Both the position numbers and the translations under genes were made by a program. Of a stretch of 64,000 nucleotides of DNA, positions 4,973 through 63,079 are shown piece after piece. The notes beneath the pieces are model-generated. The model worked only from the letters and a program-made list of their open reading frames with translations. It had not been told where the DNA came from and did not search any database. The stretch covers positions 43,612,143-43,676,142 of the forward strand of contig NC_064761.1 of NCBI RefSeq assembly GCF_011397635.1. Direction: 5' to 3'. Each line of letters starts with the position of its first letter. Position 1 is the stretch's first letter. Source of the DNA: Epinephelus fuscoguttatus (Eukaryota; Chordata; Actinopteri; Perciformes; Serranidae).

Positions 4973-7711
4973 TTACTGTAGTGTCAGTAGATGATTATCT
5001 ACACCCTCCAACTGAAGAGGAAGGCTGGTACCTCTGTTTCTGCGCCGTCTTCTTCTCAGACAGACACATGTGACCAGGAGGACGATCAGGATGAAAGCAG
5101 ACACTCCCAGTATGATCCACATCCAGAGGTCGATGATGGGGGGGCCGTCTGTGGGAGACACAGTAGCTGTAAGAGAAAAGCTCTGTCTTAAAATGTGATC
5201 GCAAACATGCCAGTTTATTACAGAGTGTGTATAAGTAGGCCAGTTGTTAAACAAGGCCATGGCACAGCTTCGTTAAATCTTCAGCACATGAAGTTTGACT
5301 TATAGAGCAGCTACTGTACAAAATGTCTCCTTCACAAGAATAAAGCTGATTAAACTGAGGATCTGTCAAGTGACAAACACAGTGTGCGTGTATGCACAAG
5401 TTCACACCTCACAGAATAAAGATGAACACTTTGAAACAGCTCTGACCGCCTCAGCCCTGAGATCTCATCACCTCTATAAATGGATATCTGTCTCTGCAAA
5501 GCAACACTCACCAGTAAAACACATGCGTCACGGCCACTACAATAACAGCTCAGACTGTGTGTGATTGTCCATAATGACTAGGTACATACACACTCATACA
5601 CAACCACACACATATGCATACATGCGCACACACGCACATGCACACACACCTTGTTTAGCTGTCGCTATGGGTCGTGACAGGTACGTTGTGTGTTCGATGC
5701 TCTTCGCTGTCACGGAGGAAACAAAATTTCATTTAGTAACAGCAGGCTAGAATCTTCCACGAGCCCCTCCATGACATGTTAAGCTTCATGGCAACACTTC
5801 ACTTCATGAACCCTTCATTTCACATTTATGAGCAGCCTGTGAGAGCAGGGTCGGCTGGGACGGTACCTCTTTGACTTTAAGTGAGAAAGCAACTCTGCCA
5901 TTCACCATGCTCAGTCACACCCTCCTCATTTTCAGCCTCAGAGCTGAGACCGTCTGACTAATCCTCATATTTACTCACTGTCTTAAAAACGACAGCGTGA
6001 AAGTGCGTTTTTGTCTCATTTTTTTTTTTATTCTGCAGTTCTGTTTTTAGTTGTGCTACATACAAAAAACATCACTGGAAAGCTGATTTCCTGGCGTATT
6101 AGTGGCTGTTAGCTGTCAAATTTTTTGTCGGTGGCGCCAAAATGTCCAAAATGAGTCTGCTCTCCCTGACAGTATTGTTTATAGGTAAACAAAAACAAGA
6201 CCGAGACTTTTCCTTACTGAAGAAGACGCACTGCAAAGTCACAGAGTGAATGATTACTCCATATAGGCCGACGCTTCAACCCCTGAGCATATTTTGAATG
6301 TGCAGAGTTCAACTATTTTTTAACTCTCAAGTTGTTGTCATAAACTTTTCTGTTTGTTTGTTTTCTTTCTTTTTCTCAACAGCCTACATAATCCAGCCAT
6401 CTGTAGCCTATGATAACCACGCTGAGCTGATAACTGCCACCAAAACGATGACTCAAAAGACTTTCATATCTCAGTTATTACAAAAAATAATAATATTACA
6501 AATGCTTTCTTTTTCTTGAAGAAATGTGCAAACAAGTGGCATTGTAAATAAAAGGTGTTCATATTTAGACTCCAGTTTTTCTCAATTTAAATTTAAATTT
6601 TTTAGCTCAGAGGGTGTCTCAACTCCGGGCTCTAAAAAACTTGATAATAGCAGACACGTGTATCTATCAAGGGATCAAATTATTGCCATAACCGTTTAAG
6701 TAGTAATGGAAGCTTATTTCATGTCGATACAAAAATGTCCCAACTGACCCCGCTCTCCCCTAATATATAGTTTATAAGCCACTATAATGTAGTTGTAATA
6801 AAAATATAAGCAAGGTGCAAAATTAACTTTTCTTTCAACCGGCCAAATGGCTGATGAATGTTCAAATCTGACCAGATACCAGATAGTTTAATGTATTTTT
6901 GGCTGATGAGTGAAGCAAACCCATCAGCCACTTACATATTTTACCAACAGGTGCACGGTGCTAATTTTTGTACCCTGGATTTAAGTGTTTATTAATGTAT
7001 TTGTGAACAAGCGTACCTCCTCCTCCTGTGGGCACCTACCAGTCTCTAAACACAAAATATATTCAAATATTACTTTATAGGCTCATCGCTGACAAACACT
7101 GTGCATTAATAAAGACTTAAAAACAACTACATTATAGTACGTTATAAACCATTTGTTAATTGTTTGCATATTGTTTCTAAATGTGAAATTTAAATCAGAA
7201 TCAGCTTCACTGGCCGAGTTTGTGAACACATACAAATAATCTGACACTTTCTTTTTTGTTCTCAATGTACTTACACAGAAATAGAAATAAATAAAGTGTC
7301 ACCAGCCTCATCAGTTACACGTAATACTTACAAATAACTACTTCTGTTCCATGGCTCCACTTTTCGGTTAAAGAGGGAATCTCTATTATGACTTTGCAAA
7401 AGTACCATCCACTGTTCTCCTCTGTTGCATTTGATAAAGTGTACACCGACAAAGTCCCCTCAGTGTCTCGCCCTTCATCCTTCAAGTTAGACGCCACGGT
7501 GGAGGTCCTTGCAGACTTGTTAACCATCTCTGTATGTAGTACTGTGTGTGAATCATTGACCAAAGATCGTTTGAAATACCAGACCACTCGTAGTCTGGAA
7601 TGGGTCTCTGTCCTCAAACGGCAGTGGAAAGTCAAAGTGGAACCAGAAGGAACCTTCTCTTCTCTGATGTTGTCATCCAGAATCACAGGAGCTTGACCTG
7701 ATATCACCAAG

Positions 7712-7801
<90 letters not shown>

Positions 7802-8032
7802 CTACTTTAATCACTTTGCAGCATCTGCTAGTAAAAGCAGTACAGTAACAGGTGAATGTGTTTAATTCTACTGCAGCTCTGCACACATTAACTTTCACTC
7901 AGTTCATTCATTGTCTCATTCAACACCCTCATGTTTTATCTTTACGGCTTTGCTGTCAGTGAATTGTCAGTTTTCAGGACCCTTACCTGTGAGTAACACC
8001 ACCAGCGTCGACCGTGTCAGCCACATTTCCAT
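4973..8032 (-). CDS. tmigd2-like: TMIGD2/CD28H-like single Ig-domain membrane receptor
   Basis: Three exons join in phase: 8032-7987 (signal peptide, MEMWLTRSTLVVLLT), 7712-7332 (Ig V-type domain) and 5166-4973 (stalk, membrane segment, tail), giving 206 aa. The Ig domain has the disulphide cysteines C46 and C121, core W60, a GWYFC F-strand, and sequons at N68, N80 and N110. A membrane helix spans about 156-179, followed by six arginines. The words RLRVVW before the core Trp and CKVIIEIPSL after the second Cys match, from memory, the RLRVxW and EIPxL words of human TMIGD2 (CD28H, the HHLA2 co-receptor). The neighbour fsd1 is also the human neighbour. The short tail lacks a tyrosine motif; splicing at a weak GTACCA donor ending the exon at 5032 could add unseen tail exons. 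Other single-V fish receptors remain possible. The Ig-TM architecture is certain; the orthology is inferred. Confidence 0.8.
5167..7331 (-). other. Intron 2 of the TMIGD2-like gene
   Basis: This 2.2-kb intron runs from donor GTAAGT (7331-7326) to acceptor ACAG (5170-5167). Apart from a loose CA-rich tract at 5587-5650, I see no repeat ends or embedded genes. Confidence 0.6.
7713..7749. repeat. (CTG)12 trinucleotide repeat at a splice acceptor
   Basis: Twelve CTG units on the plus strand read as (CAG)12 on the minus strand, directly abutting exon 2 of the TMIGD2-like gene. Every unit ends in AG and is a potential acceptor. Earlier units would add in-frame GCA alanine codons to the signal peptide. 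Confidence 0.95.
7750..7800. repeat. (GATA)n tetranucleotide repeat
   Basis: About twelve GATA units follow the CTG tract without a gap. On the transcribed minus strand they read (TATC)n, just upstream of the CAG acceptor tract of the TMIGD2-like gene. Confidence 0.95.
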
Positions 8033-9344
8033 CGTATCATGTGAGAGGTGGTCTTCGTCGTCTTCTTCTGCTCATCCTGTCTGCTGTGAGCCTGTCTGCA
8101 CATCTGACAGAGCTAGACAAAAAAAAGTGTGTAGGTGGGAGGAGGTTTTTTTTTTTTCTTTTGTTTTAAGTGTACTGTGAGAATAAGTTGTTGTCTGAGG
8201 AGGGGACTGACTGTGGTGGAGGTTGCACACACAACACATTTAGATGGAAAACAGTGTAGGCTTTCAAACAGACCAGAGAAATCCCGGACTACACACTGCA
8301 TTACTGTTTCATTTTGTTTTAATCAAAAGACATCAAAGCTGGATGCTTCCTCATTGCTAAAAAAGAACATCCTGCTGTAATCACACCTCTGCAGGTTGGT
8401 AGTGTCAGAAGTCGGTGGCAACGCGCTGAACACAAATAAAAACAGGGCACACAACGAAGATCCGAGGGGTTTGTGAAACCCTTGTGGGTTTTGGTGCAAG
8501 GGTGCTAAAACACATTTACCTTATCCCCACAGCGGTGTACAAGGAAATGAGCGCTGAGCTTCCTGTGACAAGACACAACTGAGCATGATGAACCTTCTGA
8601 TTCAATCTCCAACCACAGCTTACAAGGTAATTGCAGGAGAGACGACAAAGATCAGAGATTATATAATAAGTGCGATTTTTCTCACAGTGTAGTTTCATAC
8701 AAACGTGTTGAGGTGCTAACAGAGACACTTTAAAACAGAGTAACCACTAAGATCTCATCTAACTCTAAGTTTGAGATGTTTTACAGGTTTAGGTGATTAA
8801 AACCTGGAATCTACGTAGCACTGATTTACTCTAATATCTGGTATAAACTCGTCTTTAAGTCCCTTGAAGAAAGATGCAGTGTGATAATAAATGTTTGTTC
8901 AGGACAGCGGAGACAAAAAACCACAAGAAAAAAACATCTCAAGTGTACAGGGGGTGTGTAACATCTGAAACCTCAAGCATATGAACTTTATTTTCACAGA
9001 GACTGAAAGTAGGTCTGTAATGTCTGTAATGGAGCAGAGAAATAATCTCACATCATTCTGTTAGTGGAACAGTAGTTTAGGTTTGAGCAGGTGCTGTGGC
9101 TGAAATATAACTCATCTGTACTTTCAATTAAAGTGGAAATACTACACATTTACACTATGGAAGGCTGCTATTGAAAAACAGTAGGCCTACAGACATGGAG
9201 CTCCTTGTGTGCTCTGATATTTTATGTGTAGCTTGTTGCACATTTAAATATTTTTGGGTTGGAAATGATTAAAGATGTGTCTCTGAAACAAAAGGTATTT
9301 ATGTTGTTTCAATTTATGCAAACAGAACAAAATAATCCAGCATG

Positions 9345-9379
<35 letters not shown>

Positions 9380-9791
9380 CTGTTACTACAATAGGTTATA
9401 ATATTAGTGCAAATATAGGTGTTGACAGTGCAGGTATTGTATAATTTGAAAATGAAATGAAATAAAACAAAATAAAATAAAATACAAATGTGTATATAAA
9501 ATTATGAACCAAAACAAAGTAAAAAAAAAAGTGAAATAAGGAATAAGAATGCTGGAAAAGATATAATGCAAAATGAAGATAAATATATGAACAGATGACA
9601 CTGCAAATTAAATTTTATTTTGTTTTATTACTGGTATTGCAATGTAAAGTCTAATATGAATATATGAATAAAAATAAAATAGAATTAAATTATATATAAA
9701 TATAAATATTATAAACAAACTTTTTGTAAAAGGTACTAAAATAAGGAATAGTGATGCATTATTGCTCAACTGTACCTTAACACCATTATTG
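8033..9791. other. Upstream region of the TMIGD2-like gene; no gene seen
   Basis: Intergenic sequence between the TMIGD2-like start and the transposon cluster. It is increasingly AT-rich after 9240. No TATA box or CpG island could be assigned with confidence. Confidence 0.4.
9344..9379. repeat. (TAGA)9 microsatellite
   Basis: Nine tandem TAGA units, a second GATA-type microsatellite about 1.5 kb from the first. Confidence 0.95.
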
Positions 9792-10750
9792 TTAAAGGAT
9801 AACTTCGGTATTTTTCAACCTGGGCTCTATTTCCCCATGTGTATGTGTGCGTATGATTCATAGGTACAACTCATTCTAAAACTGGTTCAGTATTGAGGGA
9901 GGCGGATGCAGCCGGCAGCCACGGGGGCAAATGCGTCCCGTATAAGTTTGCGCATTAAAAGTGCTTTTTTTCACCACTGACCGGTTCAGATCGCCAGTGC
10001 TATCTCTGTAAATAGCATACTAAGTGTTTCGAACATTGTTTATATAACATTAACTCCACTGTGTCTGTAGCTCTCTCTACTCGTGGGACAGCCGTCTTCT
10101 TGAGGAAGAGGTGTTTCGGGATTGGATGTCTTCCCTTCTTCAGCTGGCAGTAGTCATCTTGGGAGAAGTGAGCACTGCAGACCTGATGGTCTGCAAGGCG
10201 CAGTGTCTGGACAGGAGTGTTAGCATCCATTTGTAGCACAACTAGCCACAACTTCAGCATCTCCCCGTCCGACAAAGGCAGCCTATGAAAGCTGATGTCG
10301 GGGTGTTGCGCGACATCCTGTTCTTGCAATTCGGATAAGCACAAACACGAACCATTGTTTTCAGTCGATGCAGTAAAACTCTCAGCTGTACTCCGGGACA
10401 ACCAGCGCCACTCTGAGCGGCGCTCAGCATGGCTCCTCTGTTTTCTTCTGGCAACAAGCAAAGCTCTCGCGAGATGACGTCACAGCCCAGAGGTAAGGGA
10501 AACGCTTAGTATGCTATTTACAGAGATAGCACTGGTGATCTGAACCAGTCAGTGGCGAAAAAAAGCACTTTTAATGCACAAACTTATACGGGACGCATTT
10601 GCCCCCTTTACCGTTTTAGCTCATTTCGCGGCTCCCGGCTGCATCCGCCTCCCTCAATACTGAACCAATTTTAGAACGAGTTGTACCTATGAATCATACG
10701 TACACATACACATGGGGAAATAGAGCCCAGGTTGAAAAGTTATCCTTTAA
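9792..10750. mobile_element. TTAA-flanked DNA transposon with long inverted ends and a THAP ORF
   Basis: The element at 9796-10746 (951 bp) is flanked by TTAA at 9792-9795 and 10747-10750. Its ends are inverted repeats of roughly 235-250 bp (9796-10031 and 10499-10746) that start AGGATAACTT; the right arm differs by a few substitutions and small indels. The centre encodes a THAP domain on the minus strand. A TTAA target duplication together with a THAP domain is the combination known for the Kolobok superfamily. No catalytic domain is present, so this copy is non-autonomous. Confidence 0.8.
10000..10355 (-). pseudogene. THAP domain fragment of the TTAA element, frameshifted
   Basis: From the ATG at 10355 the frame reads MVRVCAYPNCKNRMSRNTP, the start of a C2CH zinc finger. 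The remainder continues in another frame with SFHRLPLSDGEMLKLWLVVL, then VCSAHFSQDDY and an ending LFLKKTAVP, which together give the Cys, core Trp, Cys-His and AVP-box of a THAP domain. One small indel near 10300 separates the halves. No nuclease domain follows; the frame runs into the inverted repeat. The fragment is transposase-derived DNA-binding sequence. Confidence 0.7.
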
Positions 10751-15728: not shown

Positions 15729-31454
<15,726 letters not shown>

Positions 31455-32355
31455 TCTCATGCACTCAGCCAGCTGGACGCCACCCAGCTCTGCTCGACCA
31501 CAGTCCCAGCTGCAGAACATCACCTCTGCCGTGGCTGCGGTCCAAGCCATATCATGGAAGAGTTTCATCACTGGAGTAGGATGGTTTAGCCTGTTCCTTC
31601 GGCTGCGTTACGTGACAAGGAAAATGGTTTTGGGAACAAGTGAGTCATCGGCGCCATCAGTGACAGAACTCTTCAGATGTATGACTCCGGCTGTTGTTGT
31701 TGCTTGGGACACATTAGCTGTAGTCTCTAGTCTTTCCTCTCATGTCATTTAGCACTGTCCCACTGCTGCTAGAGCAAAGATTTAGCGCTGGCCGCTGCCC
31801 TTCCTTCCTCGCCATCACCAAAACTGTCAGTCGTACTGTCAAAGCAGCCAGCTGCAGGTGCAGGGTCAAGGCCTGTCCTGTCTGCTCTCTCCCTGTGCCT
31901 TCCTTCTCATTTCCAAACTGATTGGCCAAATCAGGTGATCCGCACCAACATGCTAGTGTTTCACTGTCTCCCTATACCAATTTAAAACAATGTGTTGTGT
32001 CGGTGTCGTTATAACTCGGTTGTAACGTAACTTAGTGGTAATTATCACCCACTGAATCTGCCTCTTCTCATCAGCCAACCTGTGTAACCCAAATAATCTG
32101 CTCCTTGACAACGCTACTGAATAGAATGTAGTTCATTAAATCAGGATTTATTCAACTTTGCCAGCAGCTAACGGATCATAAGAACAACACATATTAGGGA
32201 TGCTGTGTTTTCTGTCTTGCCGAGGCATGCAGACCAATCAGTGTTTACTGCATTTCACTTTTTGTAGTCGGGTTCGCGTGCGAGAAACTGGGTCGTTTAG
32301 CCTCCTGCTGAGCTTCTGTTGGTTTGAAATCAGAATCAGTGTTGGCTGTGAGAGT

Positions 32356-35999: not shown

Positions 36000-38900
36000 T
36001 CACTCTTGACTCTTCGCCTTTTGTTCAAGCTTCAGTTTCAGCTCAGTTATTGCTGCGAGAGGAACTGAGCACAGCAGACACAAAGATTTAAAAACGACAT
36101 GTAACAGAGAAATATGAATTGAGACTGAAAATACATCTACACGAGTTATATCTAAAGATGGCCTCCAGGGCGGGGCGGACTTACTTTGTACCAGAGGGTC
36201 TGTGAGGGTTCTCTTCCTCAGATCCCGTTTGGTCGTGGAGGGCGAGGAGGGGCAGGTGGAGGAGGTGGAGGAGGTAGAGGAGGTCGGTGTCAGAGAAGAG
36301 GTCAGTTTGCGAGGAACAGGAGTCGGAGGCATGATCGCTTTCTTTGGAGCTTTTTTCTCCTTTGCTGTGGGAGACCAACAAACATACAATGATTCACAAC
36401 CACAACTAAATGATTTCAGTAGAAAGGGAAAGGTGAGTTCCTAAGAAGTTATGAAACAAGATGGAGGGACTTACGTGGCAGTAGAACAGCTATGGAAGCC
36501 TCTGTCTCTTCTTCTTCCTCGTCCACTGTTTGAATACACAGAGGTTAGTCAGCAGCAGCAATGGAAAAAATGAAGTCGTACCTGTTTGTGTTTGTTTGAC
36601 AGAAGCAGCAGGACTGATGGAGGGACTGATTGATGGGGTCGGTGGCAGCAGAGTGATACTCACTGTTGTCATTCAGGTAGATATTCTCTTCCTCAGCTGG
36701 AGCTGGAGCTGGAGCTGGTTCAGGGGTCGGCACTCTCACAGCAACTGCCAAACACAACATGTAATTATGATTATTACAGGGCTGAGAGAAAGACTGATGT
36801 GACAGTAAACAACAGGTGCTGTCACAGTCGGCTTAAGACATCACCTAAACCTCAACCTACAGCGTGCAGAAATAGATACTGGTTGTATACAGTGTACACC
36901 ATGTTCAGCATAACAAAGGTTACAGTATGTTCAGAATAACATGAGTTCAGCTCTATTGATGGCCATATCAGTCAGTTCAGATTCATATATCTGATGGATT
37001 GCCATGAAATTTTCTACAGACATCTGCAGTACTCTTAGCATTAAATCCTACTGACGTTGGCATTCCCTCGACTTTTCCTGTGGTGCCGCCACAAGGTTGA
37101 TATTTGTCATTTCAAACACGACATAAAAACACGAATGACCATATCTAGAGCCACTGTTTTGTCTGTCTGTTCTGGGCGACTGTAGAAGCAGCATGATGGA
37201 CACCGTGGAAAAGGACCTCTCATAAAAGTCAGTGGCAATGAAAGGATATAACCGGTTTATTCTAAGGTAACAAAAACACAGCAATTCTTATTTTTCAGGT
37301 GATTATACACTGAAGAAACCAAAGTTATGAATATACAATTTCTGCCAATAGATGCCCTGAAATCCTTCACACATGGCTTGTTTTTTCCACCAAAAATGTT
37401 TTACGCTGGTCAAGTGTACTTGGCTGAAGAAATGTTTCAAAGGGGGCACATCACTGAAACAAGTTCGAGACCCAAAGATATATTGTGTCCAGTACTCTGG
37501 ATTATGTACAAACACATGCAAAGCTAATGAAGTTCCCATCAGTCTCTGCTGTACTTTATCTTTAGCGCTACTTAACAAAAGTTAGCATGCTAATACGCTA
37601 ACCTAAGATGGAGAGTATTCTACCTGCTAAACTTCAACATCTTCACGTTATCAGTAGTGAGCATGTTAGCCTTTATCTCAAAGCACTGCTAGCATGTCTG
37701 TAAATCATGTTCGATTCTAGATGGTAACCCTAGATTTGCAAAACTCTTGCGAGCTGCTCAAAAACATTCTCGTTCGGCTGTTTTATGGTTCGACGGTGCT
37801 GTGGTATATAATATAATATATGGAAGTACTTTGTCATCGTTATGGAAAGATGGTTTGGGCTGAAATGATCACTTGAAACATGGAACATGAAATCTTGCAA
37901 GAGTTAAGTTTAGAGACAAAATGTGTCCAGTACCTTGGTTCAGGTAAGCTAATGAGCACAGCCTCAGCTGTTTACTGCTAATTAACAAAAGTTAGCATGC
38001 TAATAGGCTAACCCATGATGGAGCGCATGGGAGTTAGCATCTAGACAGGAATGTAGTCCAGCGGCTGTAAGAATATATCTGAGGAGATGATTAAGAAGAT
38101 AAAACTTTGTTGTTGGAAATCCTGAGATCATTTATCTGGAAACCGTGTTTGAACTGGTCACAACCAGTAAACAAATGCAATCTGTGATGAGTGATCTCAA
38201 ACAGTTGGAAACCTGCTGTTGACTCGTCGTCCTGTAAAGATTTGTTTGAGCTACAAAATCCAAAGCAAAACAAAAGTGTGTGGAGTGATTTAAACGCTCT
38301 CAAACAAGCAAAACATGAGTGACTGTGTGTGTGTGTGTATACGTGGACTCACAGTGCAATCATTCCTCTACAGGGAAACGTCAGTGTTATCTCCAGGGTT
38401 TGAAAACCTTTGATTGATGTGCAACTACGAGTACAAAGTGACTTAACCAACCAGTTCAGATGTGTTGCTTTTATAGAAACTACATATACTAGGTTTATAA
38501 TAATATTAAACATAAGATTATACAACATTTAATTTAATATTTTTAATTGTAAGTGATTTACATTATGATATGAAGTCAGTCATTTTCACATCACTGTGAC
38601 CTTGTTGGGAAAAGTCCAAGTGAAGTTGCAGAGGTGGAATTTCCAGTTACCTGAATGCGTCAATGAGCTGCAGCAAACAGGTGTGGCAAACAGTGTAAAC
38701 AATTTAGTGGCTGGACGTGTGTGTGTGTGTGATGTTTGTTTTAATGGACAGATCACCTGGCTTGGGGGGGACACTCGGAGGGTTTGACGGAGCCTGTTGG
38801 ACGCTCTTTTCTCCGTTTTCATCATCAGACCGAATAAAAGCTGTAAAAACAGAGTCATTTATACGTTTTGCAAACAAAACAGAAAAGAATAAATAGCGTG

Positions 38901-41900
38901 AAACAGAAAGTAAGATTGAAATGTCCCAGTTTTTGTACGTACAGATGCGTTTCTCATACGCTTCTTCGAGGATGAGGGGAATCAGGACTCTGTCAGTTTT
39001 GTCCACTAAATAGTTGATGACATCGTGTAGCGTGGCACAGGGGACCTGCACGGAGAACAGCTTTTATTTAACTACTTAAGAGCAATAAAATAAACACAGG
39101 GAATAAAACAGGTCGACTTTTACGATTAGATTTAACCTGACCACAAAAACCACCATATCAACATTAGGAATCTCTGCACCTTCATCTGTGTTTGAAATTC
39201 AGTGTAACTACTGATTATGTATCATTAGTGCCGGGAAGGAAATTATGGGTCTGCTGCACGCAAAAATACCTTGCCCACACACACACACACACACACACAC
39301 ACATGGCATGCATGGTTTTATGGGAGCAGCCTCAGAGGTGAGTCATGCCACTATCAGGCAAATTCTTCCAAGTCTCATCCAGCATGTCCACAGTTGCAGA
39401 AGAAATATGACTGTAATGATCATGAGCCAATTAACGTCATGTGACAGTTTGATTGTCACAGCCTCTTCCTTTCTGGGAAGTCACATAATGCTATAGTTTC
39501 TGAAATTCTCATCTCTCACCTGAACAATGAAAAAAACTCAAGCAACTGGTTGTTTCATACGTAATGCTCTGCACTGCCAGCTGAAGTGATTTTTTAACTT
39601 GCAGGTGAAGCTCAATAACACAAGTTAATATGTACATGGCCGAATTTATCAAGCAATAAAAAGGCAACGTCAGTTTTCTTATCTACTGTATAATCTAAGA
39701 ACAACAAAGCAGTCGCTGATAGTTTTAGCTGCTGGACCTCTGTCCTCTAACTGTGGCACATGTAGTGCCATAAAGTACCTTCAGCATGACTTTTTAATAC
39801 TTACAGGATTGTCAACATCAATGGCGAAGCTCCCGTCAGGTTTACGCACCACGCGGTAGTGTTTGAATACAGAGCTGGTGGAGAAAGAGAGAGACAGGCA
39901 AATAAAATACAGATGCAATAAACAAATAAACGGATTATAAACTGTCTGACAACACGTGCAAAGACATGTCAGACTGCCTGTTATACTCTCCTCTAGCAGT
40001 AACTGTACTGCATTAAATACAATCTGAAAGAAAAGTGACGTCGCTCCAGCTTTCAAATGGTTAATTGATGGTACAATAGTTGTGTTTCAGTCCGAGTGTA
40101 TGTACACCTTCATATTAAATCTGTGTGGGAGCGAGTGTGCTTTCAGTATGTGTGTGTGTGTGTGTTTACCCTTCAAGGTCCTGTCTGGTGGTGACAGCGA
40201 AGGAGTTTCCATTACTTCCAGGCCTCAGCAGCAGGTTTCCTCTCTTGGCTTCTCGCTCAAGCAGCAGCTCTGCCTCCAGACGGGACACACTGTGGTAACA
40301 ACTGCAGGACACCAGAGAACACACACGTGTTGTGAGACAAAAGGGAAAAACTTCAGCGTTCATTCATCTAAAACTAATTTTATTATTCTATCATTCAGAA
40401 GAGATGCATCGAGACCTCACACAGGGAGTCTGTGTGCAGGAGAAACTTTGTTTTAAAATCAACAAAGTCTTGTGAGCTGAGCTGAACAACACAAACACCA
40501 TCAACCAGCACCTCATCTTTAAATTAAAAACACTGTCACCTTGATTTAAGCTGAAAAATGCTGCGTTTTTATCTCCTCCAAAGAGGTGATGTTTTGGCTC
40601 ATTTGATTGTCCGTCAGCAGGATTATGGCCAACAGTCATGGAGCTTTGTGGAAGGGTGTAGCACGAGCCAAGGAGGAACCCATTACATTTTGGAGCAGAT
40701 CCAAATCACAGCAGCGGAAAGTATTTTTCATTTTCCGTTAAGAATGCAAGATAAGGCATTTGTCCTTGGCATAAGTCTCTCTGAGTGTCCTTCTTGTTTA
40801 AATAATTCAAAGAGGGTTTTAGCATGAGACAATGGGCCCGCTGGCCCCACCACCTCTCCATCATAGGAGCAAGACACACAGACTCTGAGGTGGTTTTTGT
40901 CTCTTTTGTGTCTCTCTGTAAACACTTTTGTCTCCTTGCAGTTGTTTTTGTGTCTTGTTATAGTTGTTTCGTGTCTCTTTGAGGTAATTTGTTTGGTCTT
41001 TTGGTCGTTATGTGTCATTTTGTGTCTCTAAGTGTTTTTTTTGCCCCTTTTTGTAATTATTTTATGTCTCTTTGAAGACATTTTTGTCTCCTTTTTGTTG
41101 TAATGTGTCTTTTTACAGTTGTTTCATGTCTTATTGAGGTAATTTCGTGTCTTACTGGTGTATTTTTGTGTCTCTTAGTGGTATTTTTTTGGTCTTTTGT
41201 GGTCATTATATGTCTCTTTGTTGTCAATTTATGTCTCTTAGTGGTTGTTTTGCTCCTTTTGTGTCCCTCTATAGTTCCTTTGCATCTCTTTGTGGTCATT
41301 TTGTGTCTCTCTGTAAACACTTTTGTCTCCTTGCAGTTGTTTTTGTGTCTTGTTATAGTTGTTTCATGTCTCTTTGAGGTAATTTGTTTGGTCTTTTGGT
41401 CGTTATGTGTCATTCTGTGTCTCTAAGAGGGGTTTTTTTGCCCCTTTTTGTAATTATTTTATGTCTCTTTGAAGACATTTTTGTCTTCTTGTAGTTGTGG
41501 TGTGTCTTTTTACAGTTGTTTCGTGTGTCTTTGAGGTAATTTTGTGTCTTACTGGTTTATTTTTGTGTCTCTTTGAGGACATTTTTTGATCTTTTGTCTC
41601 TTTGTTGTCAATTTGTGTCTCTTAGTGGTTGTTTTGCCCCTTTATGTAGTTTTGTGTCCCTAAATAGTTCCTTTGCATCTCTTTGTGGTCATTTTGTGTC
41701 TCTTCCTGGTTGGTACGTGGCCAGGAGCCCCTGACACTTTTGCCCCGTGTCTGTGACCTATGGGCATGTTCAGTAATCCATCCATGAGTTTTAGGGAATA
41801 TTTGGAGACATTTATGAAGATTTAATCCTTCAGGTTAAAACCCCAAAGTCATCAAGTATGAGTTTTCTCTGGCAGCAAAGCTGTGCAAATTACTTTGTAA

Positions 41901-44900
41901 ACTGTTGGAGGAAGATGCAGAGACTCAGATGCAGACGTGCACTGCCTCTAGAAAAGCTCACAAATTTGGCAAAACCACTAAGATAGATAAGGTTCTACGA
42001 TGAATTGAGATTATATGTATCTTCAAGGCAGCCACATAAAGCCTTTTTCTGTCCTGGATGCTGTCCATATCCGAGCCCTAACATATGAAGTTACAGAATC
42101 GAGGAGACCATGAACCCAAACCATTACATACCAAAATACTTAAGACCTTTTAAATTTGCTTTAAAATGTTCTTCTCTGATCTTAAATCTGCTCATGTGTT
42201 TTGTATCATGGTACCAGCCCCTCCTATTGTCCGCATTAGTGTCTTGTCCATACTCACGCTGGCATGTCTGCTTTGAGGCTGATGTAGGCATTGGAGTTGG
42301 TGACAGCAGCAGGTGGAGGAGGTGGAGGGAGACTTTTCATTCTCTCCTTTTCCTTTTCTACTGCCTCCTTTAACATGTGGATCTGACCTGGGAGCAGGTT
42401 GAGGGAGGAGGGTACCGACAGCTGCAGGGAGACACACAGTTTCTCCTTTAAAATGTTTGTTAACTACATCTAAGCATCAATAATCTTAAACTTCAGTTAC
42501 TGAAAAATGTTTATTAAGTGAGCTAAATGTTAAACACCACTGACCTCAGCCACAGCGTGGATGTAACCCTTCCACAGCTCTCGAGCTTCTGCATTAGGAG
42601 CCTGCGGACACAATGAAAGAGAGAAAAACTGTTGAAATGAAGAATTAATCTGACAAAGAGGATGATTTCCATATTGTTTACATATATTCCCTCACAGTGA
42701 ATTTGATATTCAAGTCCTTCATCTGTAGGTTGAGTCTGGCTGCGTCTAAGTTACGGTCCTGGCTGCTGTCATCTGTTATTGAGACCAGTCCAGTGAGATC
42801 CACTTTCTCTATGTACTGATGAAACACACACACAGACACACATCATCTCTCAGTGTGGGCAGGAAAATATCTGATTAATAATCATCCACATGTCTGCTCT
42901 GGGATAACTTACATCAGCGTCTCTCTTGTCGTTAAAGAAGAACAGCGAGTTTCCACACAGACACGTCCACAGTTTCCGGGATGTCTGCACAAACACAGAG
43001 ACAGAGACAGAGATGTGCTGACTAAAAGACATCACACCAAGCAGGGAATACAGAGGAATTACAGATATCAGGATGAATATAAAAACACAGATTGTTTATT
43101 TGTGTTAATGCACGGTAAATAAAATAAGGAAGAAAAAAATGTTTGTTGTACAATAAGGAAATAAATGGGGCAGCTGAGTCTGTGCAGACGACATTCTTGG
43201 ATCAGATTTGATGAGTCAAGCATTTGTAACCAACCGAAACCAGTGTGTGATATCAATAACAACGTTAGGACCTGAGGACAATTAGCTATATGAGTCACCA
43301 CCTGATTAACATGTGTATGGAATAAATCAGAAATTGTGGTGACTATTGTTTGTTTCCGGAATCAAAATCACTAAAATATGAGAGCTGAACTGTAAAACTG
43401 AGATTCTGACGTAACTGAGCGGCTCTAGATTTATCTCGGAGTGGGACTTTATAGTGTGCTCAGTAAAAAGTTTCCCCTGCGATGTTACGTGCGAGTGTTT
43501 TCAGTCTCTTATCAGGGAGGGCTTGTTTGCAAAGCCTGCCTTGCCAGTTAGCACATTAACTCTTCTGTCAGTTCCTGGCTTGCTCTAATCTTTATGGCAC
43601 AATGAGCAGGAAGCAGTCAGACCAGTTGGAGAGACACAAGTGCTGTTCACCGAAAAAACTCAGGTTAAAGTCCTTATGACTTACAAGAAACTATATAATA
43701 ACAGGCGGCTCCGCCCAAAGAAAACAGCACTGAGTTAACCTGGTGCTGTGCGTTAAGTGCACTTAAGGGTTAATAAAAGGTGAAGTGTGGCGTTACACTG
43801 CAGGTTTTTATCATTAATCACAGTCAATGAATGTACAGGTTATCAAACTATTTAGAATACTGATGTAAATGTATTTATACAGCACATTTCATACGACAAG
43901 TGTAAACTCAGTGTGCTTAAGATACATCATACATGACAAACACAAAATATCATATTAGATAATTAAGTATTACATATATAAAAACAAGCAGGGCATGATA
44001 AAGATGTATTATTATCATTGTTATTAAAAAAGGGGAGATAATAACAAAAAGATCGTAGGTCCAATGAGTCGACCTTCGTTTGATGATCTGAGGGACCTCT
44101 GGTGTGAACTCTGTGAGCATGTCAGCAACACAGGAAGGAGCTAAAGCATTAAAACATTTCTAAAGAATAAGAAGTATCTCAAAATCAATTCTTTGTTTCA
44201 TTGGAAGCCAGTGAGGAGAAGATGAGAGGAGGAGCTGCTCTGCACGACAACACAGATCAGATTATTATCAAGAAGCACCAAATGTTCCTGACCTCTAAAA
44301 CATATCAAGGTTAAAAGGAATGAAGGTCCCCTGTGGCATCTTCTGCACATAGTTGAGATGCCACTCATTCACCTTTGCCTCTTTCTTCCTCTCACACACA
44401 CACACACACACACACACACCTACCATCAACAACAACAGCATACTTATTTTAAGCATGCGCATCCAACAAGAATAAGTCGATTAATTGATCAAGAAAAAAT
44501 AATCTGCAGTTACTCTGATAATTTATTATGTGAGGATTTGCTTTTCTTTATTTTATATGACAGTAGATTAAATATCTTTTCAGTGGAGGTGGATATTTAT
44601 CTCAGTTTGCTGACACTTTACAGACCTCACAATTAACCGATTAATTCAATAATAATATACAGATTAATCAACAACGAGCATGGACATGAACAAGTCTTCA
44701 AAAAGTTTTAAAATTAGAAACACTTAGCCTCTTGCAATAGCAGTGCGATCACACCCACAATTCCGTGGAATAACAGCAGGTCCAACAGAACATAGGATAT
44801 GTTTATACGCTGATGATGTAATTCTACTCATGACAAAATTAAATAAAACTATTCCGGCTTTGTTACAACTTTTTAAAACATTTGGCGACATTTCAGGATA

Positions 44901-46319
44901 TAAAGTGAACAATACTAAATCTTCTATATTATTACTAAATGCAAATGAAAGAAGGAATCCAATCCCTGAGGTAATTCAATTTAATGTTGTAGATCAGTTT
45001 AAATATTTGGGGGTACAGATTATGCCAAGCCTAGAACATGTGGTTAATGCTAATTATAAACCTTTAATGTCACAAATTAATGAGTCAATTGAGAGGTGGA
45101 TGTCATTACCAGTATCTATAACTGGGAGAATTAATATTTTAAAAATGAATATAATGCCAACATTACTCTATTTATTCCAGAATATTCCTCTACCACCACC
45201 TTCAGATTTCTTTTCAAGAATTAAGTAAACATCTGCAGGATTCATATGGAACAACAGGAGGGCAAGACTCCGTCTGTCTTTATTATATTTACCATTTGAT
45301 CGAGGGGGTTTGAAATGTCCTTGTATGTTGTGGTATTATTGGGCTGCACAGCTCAGATCTATAATGTTTTATTTTTCAACAAACAGTTCTCCTCATTGGA
45401 CTGAAATGGAGGCTCATGGTTTGAAATGACCTCTTCCCTCTTACATGTCTTCAGACACGGTAAAGAAATACATAAACAAACTAAAAATCCAATTGTAAGA
45501 CACATGACCAAGACATGGTGCGAGGTTAAAAAGCATCCAGCATCTCTATACTTCTACTCCACTACTGTACTTTTACTCCATTACATTCGCTTCAGTTACT
45601 GTGACTCTACTTTCATACCCTTCCTGTCCAGTTATAACCATGTATCTCCAAATCTGGTGAATGTTAGTGATAAACTAAAGGATGAAGTGTTCTTTATGGG
45701 CTGAGAATACTCATAACATCCTGGACTGTAAATCACTGCACATTCTGTATTCATCTCCTGTACCACCATGTTCAAATTACTGTGTAGAAGTTTGGGAAAC
45801 AACTCACAGCATTATACACCCTTCAACAGAGAGCAATCCTCAACACACTGTTTTTAAAGTCACACGCAAATCTATTTAAAAAACTATACAAAAAGTTATT
45901 TTTGGCAGATATATAGACGAGGACAGGTTGTGTTTGGGGAGTGCATATTTATTTTGTAACACTGGGTGGCACGTGGACTGTAAATAAACTGTGTTTATTG
46001 CTTATTAATTTAATTGGGTGATAAACAGACTGGGGATAGTTGTTTATTTGATGGAATAATATATAAAAAAAGAAACGTAAGAAAGGAGTAGAGCCATAAA
46101 AGTTTTACCTTCTCAGACACTGTTATCTTTGACTTGTTTTTTATAATAATAATAATAATAATTGTAAATATTTTGTATTAATATTCATAATATTTTTTTG
46201 TATTATTAGTAATATTTATGCTAAATAAATTATTTAAAAACTTTTGGATCAGCTGGAAAATTCATCCAAAGCTGGTTTTTTTGACACCATGAAAGGCTGA
46301 CCTCTCTGCAGCAGCGTCA

Positions 46320-46357
<38 letters not shown>

Positions 46358-46816
46358 GATGATGGTGCAGAATAAGATGCATTACTGCAGATTAAACAGT
46401 ATAAACTAAAGTAACAGCAGTAAATTAATGCGTTAAAATTAAAACAAAATGCACATTAATGCAGCAGTGACAATAATCCAGAAACATTATATTTAACAGT
46501 AACACACTGGCAGGTAATAATTTCCTGCACAGTGAGAACTGACACTTGATATTTTTAAGACACATACTGAGACTCAGTTTATGACCTCAACACTTTTACA
46601 CATTTAATCAACAGATACACCGACAAAAGGTCGTCATAGCAACGAGCTCTTTGCAGCTTATTTCACCTGTTGCGTGCAATAAAGAAAACCTTGTCTCTCG
46701 TGGAGTTTGCACAGAAACACAAACCCTACCTTATCCTTGAAGGACCTCTTCTCCAGGTATCCCTCATAGTAACAGTTGGGCAGCTGGTTCCTCTGACGCG
46801 CTGCTCGCTTCGCCAT
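36000..46816 (-). CDS. stap2: Signal-transducing adaptor protein 2
   Basis: Thirteen minus-strand coding exons join in phase: 46816-46730, 42984-42913, 42815-42696, 42601-42545, 42421-42258, 40301-40170, 39874-39805, 39045-38943, 38840-38757, 36744-36664, 36525-36475, 36364-36185 and 36052-36000. The product is 417 aa (human about 403, recalled). A PH domain covers about 15-112 (YYEGYLEKRSFKDK, ending ELWKGYIHAV). An SH2 domain spans about 169-268 (SVSRLEAELLLE, phosphotyrosine-binding Arg in NLLLRPG near residue 193, HYRVVRKPDGSFAIDV). The tail has PSVPPKP, a PA repeat, a YLND motif near residue 319, a Ser/Thr tract and a charged end, TELKLKLEQKAKSQE. STAP2 is a cytoplasmic adaptor in kinase, STAT and NF-kB signalling. 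It is convergent with fsd1 as in human. No frame break was seen. Confidence 0.96.
37050..37350 (-). repeat. Dispersed fish repeat, partial copy F (stap2 intron 9)
   Basis: Recognised on the minus strand by words matching the middle of the family: the complement of GCCCAGAACAGACAAAC-type and GTGATTATACACTGAAGAAA-type text. No clean ends are visible. Confidence 0.4.
39275..39302. repeat. (CA)n microsatellite in stap2 intron 7
   Basis: About 14 CA units. Confidence 0.95.
40890..41710. repeat. TGTCTCTTTG-type minisatellite, duplicated 395-bp block
   Basis: Degenerate short units around TTTTGTGTCTCTTTG fill about 820 bp of stap2 intron 5. A larger block is duplicated in tandem: TCTCTCTGTAAAC starts at 40911 and again at 41306, a period of 395 bp, and the following text (CTCCTTGCAGTTGTTTTTGT and onward) repeats with few changes. 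Confidence 0.85.
43855..44340 (+). repeat. Retroelement-like repeat in stap2 intron 1
   Basis: Begins near TGTATTTATACAGCACATTT and contains ACCTCTGGTGTGAACTCTGT and TTCATTGGAAGCCAGTGAGG, words of the same broad family as the insert at 24110. No frame is evident. Confidence 0.45.
44392..44419. repeat. (CA)n microsatellite in stap2 intron 1
   Basis: About 14 CA units. Confidence 0.95.
44724..45545 (+). pseudogene. L1-type LINE ORF2 fragment, 5'-truncated
   Basis: An open frame (44743-45228) carries the reverse-transcriptase active-site motif LYADDVILLM, then GYKVNNTKSSILLLN, QFKYLGVQIM and WMSLPVSITGRINILKMNIM, the thumb and connecting region of L1-like ORF2. After 45228 homology continues in shifted frames (FDRGGLKCPC-like, then ACMTKTWCEVKKH-like) until about 45540. 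The upstream endonuclease is missing, so it is dead. Confidence 0.85.
46322..46352. repeat. (CA)n microsatellite in stap2 intron 1
   Basis: About 15 CA units. Confidence 0.95.
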
Positions 46817-46980
46817 CACGACGTTAAACAATCAAACTGTTGGAGCGTATAGATGCGACTGTGCAGCTGATTGTCACAGTCACATGTATCAGTCAGGTCT
46901 GCCTGGTCGCAGTGAAGCTCTCCTCTATATGGAAGTGAGGAGCGAACCTGTGCGTCAGGTTGGTGACAGCGTGCTCGCCG

Positions 46981-47010
46981 CTGATTGGTCAATGCGCGGG
47001 TGGGCGGATG
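46981..47010 (-). promoter_or_regulatory. stap2 proximal promoter: CCAAT and GC boxes
   Basis: On the minus strand GACCAATCAG (complement of 46981-46990) and CCGCCCACC (complement of 46999-47007) lie 170-190 bp upstream of the stap2 ATG. The spacing and orientation fit a CCAAT/GC-box promoter. No TATA box was seen. Confidence 0.5.
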
Positions 47011-47140
47011 TTTTTAGAAAGTACCCACAGGTGGGTGCTTGTGACGTAGTGACGCATGTCTCATGGAGGGAAATCACCTGCCTGAGGGCCTCATTGAAAC
47101 TAATTACTATGTAATGTTATTTTACACATTTAATGTTACT

Positions 47141-47256
47141 AAGAACTTGGGAAACAAGTTTAGATGAGAGAGACATGGCTGAAAAGAGTTTGTGTGAACA
47201 GCTCGTACACACGTGTGTTTTCACACAATGATTCAAAATGGTGGGCTGCTTCTGGT
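47141..47256 (-). repeat. 116-bp block, copy 1 (upstream of stap2)
   Basis: The reverse complement matches 53028-53143 over 116 bases with four substitutions and no gaps. It begins ACCAGAAGCAG and ends CCCAAGTTCTT. It lies 325 bp upstream of the stap2 start codon, in the same orientation to stap2 as copy 2 has to rab11b. Confidence 0.92.
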
Positions 47257-47584
47257 CTGTCCACACACAAATTAAACGTGTTACAAATTAAAACAAACAA
47301 TAATGTTTTGGGTTTTGTTTTAGCTCACAGCTGCTGAGTCTGCGAACAGTCTACACCTGGTGCAGTGAACTGACTCTTATCTGATGTGAAGTCATACAAG
47401 GCTGTGGTTGTTTTTGCACTGCGGTGTAGTCGGGGTCAGCCCTGTTATGCAGCAACATTTCTGTCCCTGTAAATCTGTTCCAGATATTTCAGTTAAAATG
47501 TGCATATTGCATATTCAGAACAAACCTATAAAATTTTACAGTATATTATGGTCTTACAAGACGAGCTGCTGGAGTTCAAACGGA

Positions 47585-48130
47585 GCATCAGAATGATGAA
47601 GAAAGGTGATTGAAGTGACTTTGAACGTGGCATGGTTGTTGGTGCCAGACGGGCTGGTCTGAGTATTTACTGGGATTTTCAGCACAACCATCTCTAGGGT
47701 TTACAGAGGATGGTCCCAAAAAGAGCAAATATCCAGTGAGCCAAAATGCCTTGTTGATGCCAGAGGTCAGAGGAGAATGGCCAGACTGGTTCAAGATGAT
47801 AGAAAGGCAACAGGAAGTCAAATAAGCACTGGTTAACGGATAACGCACCATGTCACAAAGCTCACATCATCTCAAACATGACAATGAGTTCACTGTACTC
47901 CAATGGCCTCCACAGTCACCAGATCTCAGTCCAATAGAGCACCTTTGGGATGTGCTGGAACGGGAGATTCTCATCATGGACCAACTGTGTGATGTCATCA
48001 TGTCAATATGGACCAACATCTCTGAGGAATGTTTCCAGCACCTTGTTGAGTCTGTGACACCAAGAATTAAAAAGGGGGTCCAACCTGGTACCAGCAAGGT
48101 GTACCTAATAAAGTGGCTAGTGGGTGTATA
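47585..48130 (+). pseudogene. Tc1/mariner-like transposase remnant
   Basis: The frame 47850-48173 contains QWPPQSPDLSPIEHLWDVLE, the hallmark around the last catalytic acid of Tc1/mariner DDE transposases. Earlier sequence is broken in frame. The copy ends with GTGTACCTAATAAAGTGGC, a terminus widely seen in animal genomes. No intact 5' end was found. Confidence 0.8.
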
Positions 48131-49627
48131 TGTATTATTAGTTATAATAAAATATATAAATAGGCCGTGTTAAACTCTCTGATTTATATACCTGCAGCAG
48201 CTCAGTCCACAGGGACTTGGCTTGGGCCCCAGTCATTTCTGTTGGCAGGTCTGTATATAACTAAATACACCTGTAGTTTTTTTTGTTCTTTTTAAAATAC
48301 AGTTTTCATTATTTACTGTGTGTCCCTGAAGACATATTCTTATGTTTAAAAGTTATGAGGCAGAAGTTATGAAGTGTTGCAGCGTAACAGGAACGACCTG
48401 TCTGCAGCTGAGCAGTGATAATCTAGATAAGCATGTCGCTGACTGCGTGAACCAGTAATCATATTTCGAAGGTGCGACAGATTTGACATGAGGTAAAAGG
48501 AATAGTTTCACCACCTTCAGACAGTGGGGCAAACTTGAGCTTCTTCCCATACAGCTGGATTAAATGTGAATTAGACGCAGCAGGTGATTAAAGGATCATT
48601 CAGGAGATCAGCTGCTGATTTTTTAAATATTTAACTTACAAGTGAACAGAGCATAGTTAATATGGATCGGAGGTGGGTCTATATTTGTGTCAGGAGGAAG
48701 AGATGATGGCTCCATCTGCTGGCTAAATAACCACAGAGCGTATCTCATTGTGAGCATACACCTACCTCAGACTAATTTAGTGTGATGCCAGCAGTCCTGC
48801 AATAAATCCTGCTCTCATGAAAAGTGCTGATTCAACTGTATGGTCACATTTGAAGCTGTGGATTTTGTCTAGGTGCCAGGTGTGTCCAAACAGTTCTGAA
48901 TGGGGGCCAGATTAGATACTGCTGAAATACCTGGGGGCCAGCTGCTGCTGCTGCTCGCATCATATGGGTTATTAAGAAAACAAACAAATACAAATGGCCA
49001 CTTTAAAGGCCAAAGGAAGGATTCCTGTTCTGTGTGCAACTAAAGATCTCTGACCGCTTAATAAGTTTGCAGTAACAGGTTCGGGGCCATCACTGTGCTT
49101 GATTTTAATATATGCTCATAATTTTGGTTTTTAAAAAGATACCTTCTAATAATTTTCTTCAAATCTATCAAGCAGCTTTTTTTATAATGTGCACGCTAAA
49201 TTATTCCCTTACATATACTCCACATAAGCGTCCTCAAAAACAGCATGGAGCTCTGTAGCCCATAGAGAATTATACAATTTCCTGCTGGGGGGCCAGTGAC
49301 ATCGGAGAGTGCTGCTGCCATAGGGAGTGATACTTGATCTGCAGAGGTGTTTGGGCGGGTGAAGCGCATCAAGTGGCATCCTCATGAATGTCTGGACCAA
49401 GAGTTCCCCAGGAGAACACTTTATAAACTAGTGTTACATTCAGACATATAAACTATTGTGTTATAAGTGTTCCTGCAATATACACATCAATAGACAAGTA
49501 TCAGAATAAACATAAGAAGTACAGCTCTGTGCACTGTATGTTGAATACATCTATACATTCAAGAGGTGTTAAGAATATTGCACAGTTGAATAATTACATA
49601 GAGTATTGCATGTTAAATAGACTCTCA
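48131..49627. other. Spacer between inverted Tc1-like fragments
   Basis: No coding exon or repeat with clear ends was recognised. Confidence 0.35.
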
Positions 49628-49845
49628 CTAGCCACTTTATTAGGTACACTTTGCTGGTACCAGGTTGGACCTCCTTTTTAATTCTTGGTGTCACAGATTC
49701 AACAAGGTGCTGGAAACATTCCTCAGAGATGTTGGTCCATATTGACATGATGACATCACACAGTTGATCCATGATGAGAATCTCCCGTTCCAGCACATCC
49801 CAAAGGTGCTCTATTGGACTGAGATCTGGTGACTGGGTTGGCATT
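49628..49845 (-). pseudogene. Tc1/mariner-like transposase fragment, inverted copy
   Basis: Its reverse complement matches 47915-48130 with only about five differences, including SPDLSPIEHLWDVLEREI and the TACCTAATAAAGTGGCTAGT terminus. It is cut abruptly at about 49838-49845 where an L2 LINE begins. Confidence 0.85.
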
Positions 49846-50190
49846 TCAGACAGTGGCCTTCACTGGTTTGCCTCCTACCTCTCTGGTAGAAGTTTCTCTG
49901 CAGCATCTGGTCCTTTTATGTCCGAGTCCATCCTCCTTTCTTGTGGGGTACCTCAGGGCTCAGTGTTGGGTCCAATTTTGTTTGCTCTGTATATGCTACC
50001 TCTTGGAATCATTATCAGCAGGTTTGAAAGTGTATCATATCATATGTATGCAGATGATATTCAGTTGTATTTTTCCTTTAATCCTGACAGGACTGACAGT
50101 CTGAATGTACTGCATGACTGTTTGTCTGCAATTAATGACTGGATGGTCAACAATTTCCTCCAGCTTAACGCTGCTAAGACCGAGGTCCTT
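49846..50190 (+). pseudogene. L2-type LINE, 5' piece (reverse transcriptase)
   Basis: The frame reads LHWFASYLSGRSFS, then CGVPQGSVLGPILFALYMLP and MYADDIQLYFS, and ends NNFLQLNAAKTEVL. These are the reverse-transcriptase motifs of fish L2 elements. It stops in mid-domain at about 50190, where an AT-rich tail of another LINE begins. Confidence 0.85.
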
Positions 50191-52205
50191 ATTTTATTTA
50201 TTTATTTATTGTTTATTTGATGTGGACATCACAATTGCATTGCACGGACCAGATGCATTGTTTGAGTGTTTTAGTACACGTGCTAATTCACAACACTTGT
50301 CCACAGGAGGCTTTTGAAATGATAAAAATAATAAATGTAAAAGGAAAAGAAAAGAAAAAAATGAAGGGTACAATAACATACAACAGTAAAAGAGAAGCAA
50401 TTCTTCAGATTAAAATACATACATAAACTACAAAGCAAAGGCAACATGATCAAGCAATCAACCAGTTAAAAATATTCATGTGAGCACTGTTGTTTTGATG
50501 TTAGCCATTGTTTAAGTCCTTTGTTAAAAGCATTACTGTTGGTCTCTAATTTTAGTTTAGTGGGTAGAGAGTTCCAAAGTTTTGCCCCCTCTACAGAAAG
50601 AGCAGACTGACAGAATGAAGTCTTGCATCTTGGGACATGACAATCACCACTGGTGGAGGCTTGTGTGGTCGCTCTGTGAGAGCTCTGACGCCTGATGGCC
50701 AGTTCAGAAAACAGTACTGACACATGATTATTTAGACATTTAAAAAACAATTTAAGAGTACTAAAATTCATAAAATTTTCAAAGGTGAGAAAGTTGTGTT
50801 TTCTTAAAATGTGGCAGTGATGCCATCTCATTGGCTTCCGGTCCATGATTTTTATTGCCTGCTTGTATATTGAGATTATGGTTTTAATGTGGTTGAAGAA
50901 GCTTGTGACCATGATGTAATGCAATATGACAAATAGGAAAAAATCATTGCATGCATGTACAGTTTTGCAGCTTGATGTGACAGGTTCCTTCTAATAAAAC
51001 GAAAGCAGTTAAGATTTGGTCTAACCTTGTTACAGATGTACTTAACCTGACTATCGAACTTTAAGTTCTTGTCCAAAATGATGCCTAGGTACTTGACTTC
51101 ATTCACTTCATCGATGATTTCCTTCTTAATCCTGACCTCAAATACATCATATGCGGGCCTATTACACATGGAGAAGCACATGGATACAGTTTTTTTGACA
51201 TTAAGAATTAGATGGGATAACTCGAGCCATTCAGAGATGTTCAATAAAGCCTGCGTCAGATGCTCACATGCCAGGCTGGGTGTTTTAGTGGAAACATGGA
51301 TGACCGTGTCATCAGCGTACATCTGGCAGTTGACATCTGAACAGCAGCTTGGTAGGTCGTTGATATTTACTGTGAACAACAATGGACCAAGAACAGACCC
51401 TTGCGGTACTCCCATGCTGTTTGCATTCATATGTGACTTCCCCCCATTGATCCTGACACATTGCTGTCTCCCCCCCAGATATGATTTGAGCCACTTCAAA
51501 GCTTCAAAGCAATGCTGTGGTTAACAGTGATCAAAGGCCTTTTTTAGATCCAAGAACACTGCCCCTACAACATTTCCTTTATCCAGAGAGGCTTTGATCT
51601 TCTCCAGCAGATAACAGTTTGCTGTTTCTGTGGAATATTTTTGTCTAAATCCAAACTGCTGTGGGTAAAGCAGTTGGTTAGAGTCTAAGTATTCCATTAG
51701 TTGTTCAGCTACAATCTTCTCCAGAACTTTTGAGACTACAGGGAGGATGGCAATAGGACTGTAATTACTTGCTAAGTCTTTGTCTCCTGATTTATAAACT
51801 GAGGTAATTATTGCAGTTTTCCAGCTCTCTGGGAAAATTTTTGTTTGTATTGACAGGTTTACTAAGTAAGTAATTGGCTCCAACAGACAGCTCAGATATT
51901 TCTTGATAAATGCAACATTTAAGTTATGGGTATCCTTAGACATGGAGTTACTCATGTTTGCAATCACTTTTTTAATCATGGGATGCCTCTTTTATGTAAA
52001 AGGAGTCTGTATGATCATGCTCAAATTCTTCAGGAGATGACCCAGTAGATTTAAAATTACTTGCTAATTCTTGTACAGACTCAATAAAAAACTATTAAGA
52101 CCATTTGCAATAGACTCATTACTATCAATAACTTTATCACAAACTTTGAGGCAGTTTATTTTAGGGTGCTTTTGCTTACTTGAGTTGGTTAGTTTATTTA
52201 TATGT
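50190..52205 (-). pseudogene. Rex1/CR1-like LINE inserted in the L2, damaged ORF
   Basis: Minus-strand pieces run in order. 51979-51521 has WKTAIITSVYKSGDKD, NYSPIAILPVVSKVLEK and FLDLKKAFDHC. 51499-50876 has MKWLKSYLGGRQQCVRI, GVPQGSVLGPLLF and the active site QMYADDTVI. 50924-50466 has a C-terminal domain with GAKLWNSLPTKLKLE. A stop and probable short deletion follow the first motif, and a frameshift separates the last two. The 3' end is AT-rich (AATAAA-type) at 50190-50215. The endonuclease is absent. Confidence 0.85.

Positions 52206-53611: not shown

Positions 53612-63079
<9,468 letters not shown>

Follow-up and report, generated by a model that had tools for sequence, protein, structure and literature searches.

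The 64,000-nucleotide stretch of the Epinephelus fuscoguttatus genome analyzed here (hereafter, the window; C10:43612143-43676142 in a genome of 26 contigs) carries on its minus strand a real gene that is most likely the orthologue of CD28H in this species. The gene is predicted to have four coding exons, and it very probably represents fish CD28H (TMIGD2). Its product of ~254 amino acids plus 0–11 alanines would consist of a signal peptide, a single IgV domain, a single transmembrane helix, and a tail that bears one YxNx motif. What this analysis adds is a corrected gene model with four exons, the observation that a second cysteine pair is missing, and an inventory that brings this gene together with CD28HL1-like and HHLA2-like genes.

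The CD28 family was widened to nine members by Quiniou et al. (2024, Front Immunol; PMC11599192), who report cd28h in several chondrichthyans, sterlet, gar, eel, pike, salmon, and stickleback. There, cd28h is characterized by a genomic block that includes fsd1 and stap2, a CDR3 with E-I-P, and Y-[EGVTA]-N-[VIMT] as its tail motif. No other papers on fish CD28H were among the matches listed from one open-access library. A sequence-only reading of the same DNA had proposed a teleost TMIGD2/CD28H beside fsd1, had known of no description of it in fish, and had argued that such a gene would push the HHLA2-TMIGD2 pathway much deeper. The proposed identity is supported by the fsd1/stap2 synteny, the EIP motif, and a YANT-encoding tail exon that was unseen by that reading. 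The claims of an undescribed gene and of a newly deepened pathway find no support, because cd28h has already been reported in the same synteny block, from Chondrichthyes to teleosts (Quiniou et al. 2024). The window gene resembles published fish cd28h in its IgV-transmembrane-tail architecture, E-I-P, YxNx motif (here YANT), and fsd1/stap2 neighborhood, as judged from the features described for the latter.

The gene structure bears out the suggested signal peptide, IgV domain, and transmembrane segment: the minus-strand exons are bounded by GT-AG splice sites with phase-1 junctions, and the protein matches the Pfam V-set profile (E-value = 2.8e-8, 34.3 bits, cut-off 26; E-value = 7.9e-9 for the V exon alone). 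Exon 1 (7987..8032) begins with an ATG at 8032, encodes the start of the signal peptide (MEMWLTRSTLVVLLT), and ends at a phase-1 donor (CAG/GTAAGG, with the slash at the splice point). Exon 2 (7332..7712) encodes the entire IgV domain, including a Cys-Trp-Cys core, RLRVVW, YFCKVIIEIP, and WSHGTEVVI, and ends at the donor TTT/GTAAGT. Exon 3 (5032..5166) encodes a short stalk, the transmembrane helix, and RRRRRRNR, and is followed by a candidate donor at 5032 (AGAG/GTACCA). On the same strand, intron 1 closes at its 3' end with a (CAG)12 repeat (7713..7748), preceded by 12 copies of CTAT (7751-7798). Since the CAG run offers 12 in-phase candidate acceptors, the signal peptide may gain 0 to 11 alanines. 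This microsatellite (7713-7798) abuts the acceptor, and a change in repeat length could alter the alanine run of the signal peptide.

The tail of the protein is probably encoded outside of the window. A scan of the 30 kb to the left of the window identified a candidate last coding exon on the minus strand (C10:43611373-43611575; -567 to -769 in window coordinates, where 0 is the base before base 1; 9231-9433 of own-genome locus L010), which runs from GEDPVYANTRRQPSPRPG to HHHHV and a stop codon. Its acceptor (TTTGTGTGTCTTCATGCAG/GAG) fits the phase of the donor at 5032, it encodes GEDPVYANT, and an AATAAA lies ~260 bases past its stop. Under criteria that were fixed after this candidate had been seen, one exon passed the scan on the 35 kb target strand, whereas the control strand (231,377 bases) gave none. 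Splicing from 5032 to the YANT exon would give a protein of 254 amino acids, and YANT fits the published motif Y-[EGVTA]-N-[VIMT] (Quiniou et al. 2024). As a tail motif inside the window, YINV at 1963 was considered and rejected: its acceptor is poor, and it is the single YxN[VIMT] motif within 5 kb to the left of the donor, versus 1.2 expected by chance.

The 206-amino-acid open frame of the sequence-only reading (4973..8032) was reproduced from the window sequence, whereas its C-terminus and its whole-gene coordinates were not upheld, the last exon being placed beyond the window. In the 254-amino-acid model, the last 18 residues of the 206-amino-acid form (TSLPLQLEGVDNHLLTLQ; 4973..5031, minus strand, with the stop at 4973) become read-through, and they most likely derive from intron sequence past that donor, although this stretch could be a genuine retained-intron form. 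The tail of the 206-amino-acid form is devoid of tyrosine, and the YxNx motif is absent from it. A true or functional second product of this kind, such as a decoy or an adhesion-only receptor, would agree with the frame being open as far as 4973, but we consider it unlikely given the in-phase candidate donor and a tail exon of the published type 5.6 kb further on.

The neighborhood of the gene agrees with the proposed adjacency to fsd1. To the right of the window gene, fsd1 occupies 19348..31451 on the plus strand, with an fn3 domain at 27217-27501 and SPRY pieces at 29617-29988 and 31035-31259. The first SPRY piece exceeds its Pfam cut-off (E-value = 3.1e-7), whereas fn3 (E-value = 2.6e-4) and the second SPRY piece (E-value = 1.7e-3) fall under theirs; the gene, including its first and last exons, was presumptively named by eye against a provisional human FSD1 sequence. 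Beyond fsd1 lie SH2-domain exons of stap2 (38707..40363, minus strand), which match the SH2 domain of human STAP2 (PDB 2el8; E-value = 6.6e-19) when the exon pieces are joined; searched one at a time, none of the three pieces matched a Pfam profile at an E-value of 0.01. The presence of fsd1 and stap2 beside the gene agrees with the published cd28h synteny block (Quiniou et al. 2024).

Other features of the region were recorded alongside. A minus-strand exon with a plexin repeat (PSI; E-value = 2.2e-9), semaphorin-like by eye, is located ~28 kb to the left of the window gene. On the plus strand, exons of a rab11b-like GTPase, so named by eye, are found at 55768-56533 (Ras family, E-value = 6.3e-27 for 55768-55989), and the interval between stap2 and rab11b (44728-52100) contains open reading frames that look reverse-transcriptase-like and Tc1-like by eye. 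Stretches at 2139-2300 and 10257-10505 resemble by eye the start of a THAP domain and probably belong to mobile elements; the latter had no Pfam match.

The V domain itself carries RLRVVW and CKVIIEIPSL, and its CDR3, YFCKVIIEIP, has the E-I-P of the published rule. Human TMIGD2 (CD28H, IGPR-1), for which a provisional sequence was used, shares RLRVxW, EIPxL, a YxNV-type tail motif, and a proline-rich tail with the window gene. The window gene differs from it in having ~30 per cent V-domain identity (29 of 98 aligned positions), a shorter tail, and two V-domain cysteines instead of four. Four is also the number in human CD28, CTLA4, and ICOS, and the second cysteine pair of these V domains is absent from the window gene; Quiniou et al. 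(2024) do not list this pair among the criteria for CD28H in their main text. In local alignments with the human family, the window V domain scored highest with TMIGD2 (provisional sequence; z = 7.6), followed by ICOS (5.1), CD28 (3.8), CTLA4 (2.8), and PD-1 (2.2); two antibody V domains taken from the head of the PDB match list outscored TMIGD2 (z = 13.7 and 13.3). A tblastn search of the window with the provisional human TMIGD2 sequence recovered the V exon at an E-value of 0.25 (26 per cent identity), and an unrelated place at 31337-31549 had an equal E-value. The V-domain likeness to human TMIGD2 is weak.

In a phmmer search of the PDB with the whole protein (583 matches at E-values up to 10), nearly all of the 60 matches listed were antibodies; no chain named TMIGD2 was among four PDB matches. 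An AlphaFold model of the V exon alone had a mean pLDDT of 48.2 and was too poor for use. Two stretches of viral contigs that fit a pattern proved unrelated, and the sole match among prokaryote contigs, which covers ~47 residues of archaeal record L001, was put down to chance.

When the E. fuscoguttatus genome was searched with the window V domain, six of 17 scored candidates matched at E-values up to 1: the gene itself (5e-77), a pair on C23 (0.0018 and 0.062), and one match each on C13 (0.023), C8 (0.47), and C17 (0.735). Since the next match after the gene itself reaches only 0.0018, the window gene is single copy at that sensitivity.

We reconstructed a tree of 30 V domains, comprising eight family rows and 22 of 32 own-genome loci with a V frame; the rows omitted by choice (L003, L004, L006, L007, L009, L041, and L047-L050) were mostly near-copies. 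One fork (84/78, not starred) unites TMIGD2, CD28, CTLA4, and ICOS with the window gene, the two CD28HL1-like copies from C23, and own-genome row L043; PD-1 and the remaining 21 rows from this genome lie outside of it. Within this tree, the window gene, TMIGD2, and the CD28HL1-like pair do not form a single clade: three changes are required, 76 of 500 shuffles were as low, and the four are one clade in 40 per cent of 200 bootstrap trees. The window gene, TMIGD2, ICOS, PD-1, and CTLA4 were flagged as long branches. The comparison with CD28, CTLA4, ICOS, and TMIGD2 proposed in the sequence-only reading thus places the gene in the CD28 fork but yields no TMIGD2 clade, in a tree of human and own-genome rows. 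It moderately supports membership in the wider CD28 group; the V sequence alone does not decide orthology, which rests on synteny and the tail motif.

These data also bear on whether the window gene could be an unrelated fish V-domain receptor, such as an NITR, a CD300-like protein, or another, with a chance resemblance to CD28H. The prevalence of antibody V domains among the PDB matches listed and the low identity to the provisional human TMIGD2 sequence are in keeping with such an origin, but synteny, EIP, and the YxNx tail all concur on CD28H. Moreover, the large V clusters of this genome contributed one C17 exon alone to the six window-V matches, and their sampled rows sit elsewhere in the tree. 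We therefore regard an unrelated receptor as highly improbable.

A closer relative is found on C23, where two tandem V genes (28.303-28.311 Mb) carry RMRVTW, with YICKVTVEIPSL in one copy and YICKVTVDIPFL in the other. A candidate tail exon at 28303451-28303540 encodes PVYESF. Nearby (L019-L026, C23:28.27-28.35 Mb) are an S100 exon (E-value = 3.3e-17) and, ~31 kb from the tail exon, a DUF4603 exon (E-value = 3e-35), which we take to belong to the KIAA0232 family. These features agree with a CD28HL1 locus that carries two V copies in tandem. CD28HL1 is defined by YxCxxxxEIP, a Y[ED]SF tail, and kiaa0232 nearby, and the teleosts named for it are pike, trout, and catfish (Quiniou et al. 2024). 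Compared with the window gene, the C23 genes have more cysteines, the YESF candidate tail, and a KIAA0232-type neighbor; the window gene has YANT and fsd1 where CD28HL1 is marked by a Y[ED]SF tail and by kiaa0232.

The words RLRVxW and EIPxL, on which the sequence-only reading had relied, are indeed present in the window gene, but they are not specific to CD28H, as the CD28HL1-like gene has RMRVTW and YICKVTVEIPSL. Its V domain is in fact nearer to human TMIGD2 than the window V domain is (z = 13.2 versus 6.9 in that comparison). Sequence words alone thus fail to separate CD28H from its paralogue CD28HL1. Could the window gene then be a CD28HL1-type paralogue that was relocated beside fsd1? 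The published CD28HL1 motif YxCKxxxEIP is the same (Quiniou et al. 2024), and the C23 copies are the best own-genome match of the window V domain after itself (z = 14.5). Relocation is nevertheless very unlikely, because a separate CD28HL1-like locus with its own YESF candidate tail exon and KIAA0232-type exon exists on C23, and the window gene combines YxNx with fsd1 and stap2.

Candidate ligand genes were sought with a provisional HHLA2 sequence as the query, which returned 103 own-genome matches at E-values up to 1. A cluster of ~9 HHLA2-like V exons, one of which has an internal stop, spans C21:7720023-7950541 (eight at 43-46 per cent identity and the ninth at 38 per cent); a further V exon lies at C12:25.91 Mb (47 per cent), and a C2 exon reaches 44 per cent. 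When six V exons were scored against HHLA2 and B7-H4, five were somewhat higher with HHLA2 and one (L050) was one point higher with B7-H4, so HHLA2 is only a candidate identity for the C21 and C12 exons. No HHLA2 chain was among the 60 PDB matches listed of 79. In this fish lineage, a remodelled CD28H V domain that lacks the second cysteine pair of its family might face the tandemly expanded HHLA2-like cluster, with receptor and ligand co-evolving unusually fast, an idea that we consider rather doubtful.

The open frames, V domain, EIP, in-phase YANT exon, and synteny are the anatomy read from the DNA; function can be proposed by analogy. In humans, CD28H on T and NK cells binds B7H7/HHLA2 and acts as a positive co-stimulatory receptor (Quiniou et al. 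2024). By this analogy, the V domain of the fish protein, on T or NK-like cells, would bind an HHLA2-type ligand of the B7 family; the YANT tyrosine would be phosphorylated and then recruit the SH2 domains of GRB2/GADS, and this recruitment may lead to positive co-stimulation.

With this gene, one further fish joins the published orthologue set, with a corrected gene model; by itself, the finding leaves the inferred time of origin of the pathway unchanged. The presence of CD28H, CD28HL1-like, and HHLA2-like candidates in one large-contig fish genome would make a receptor-ligand test possible.
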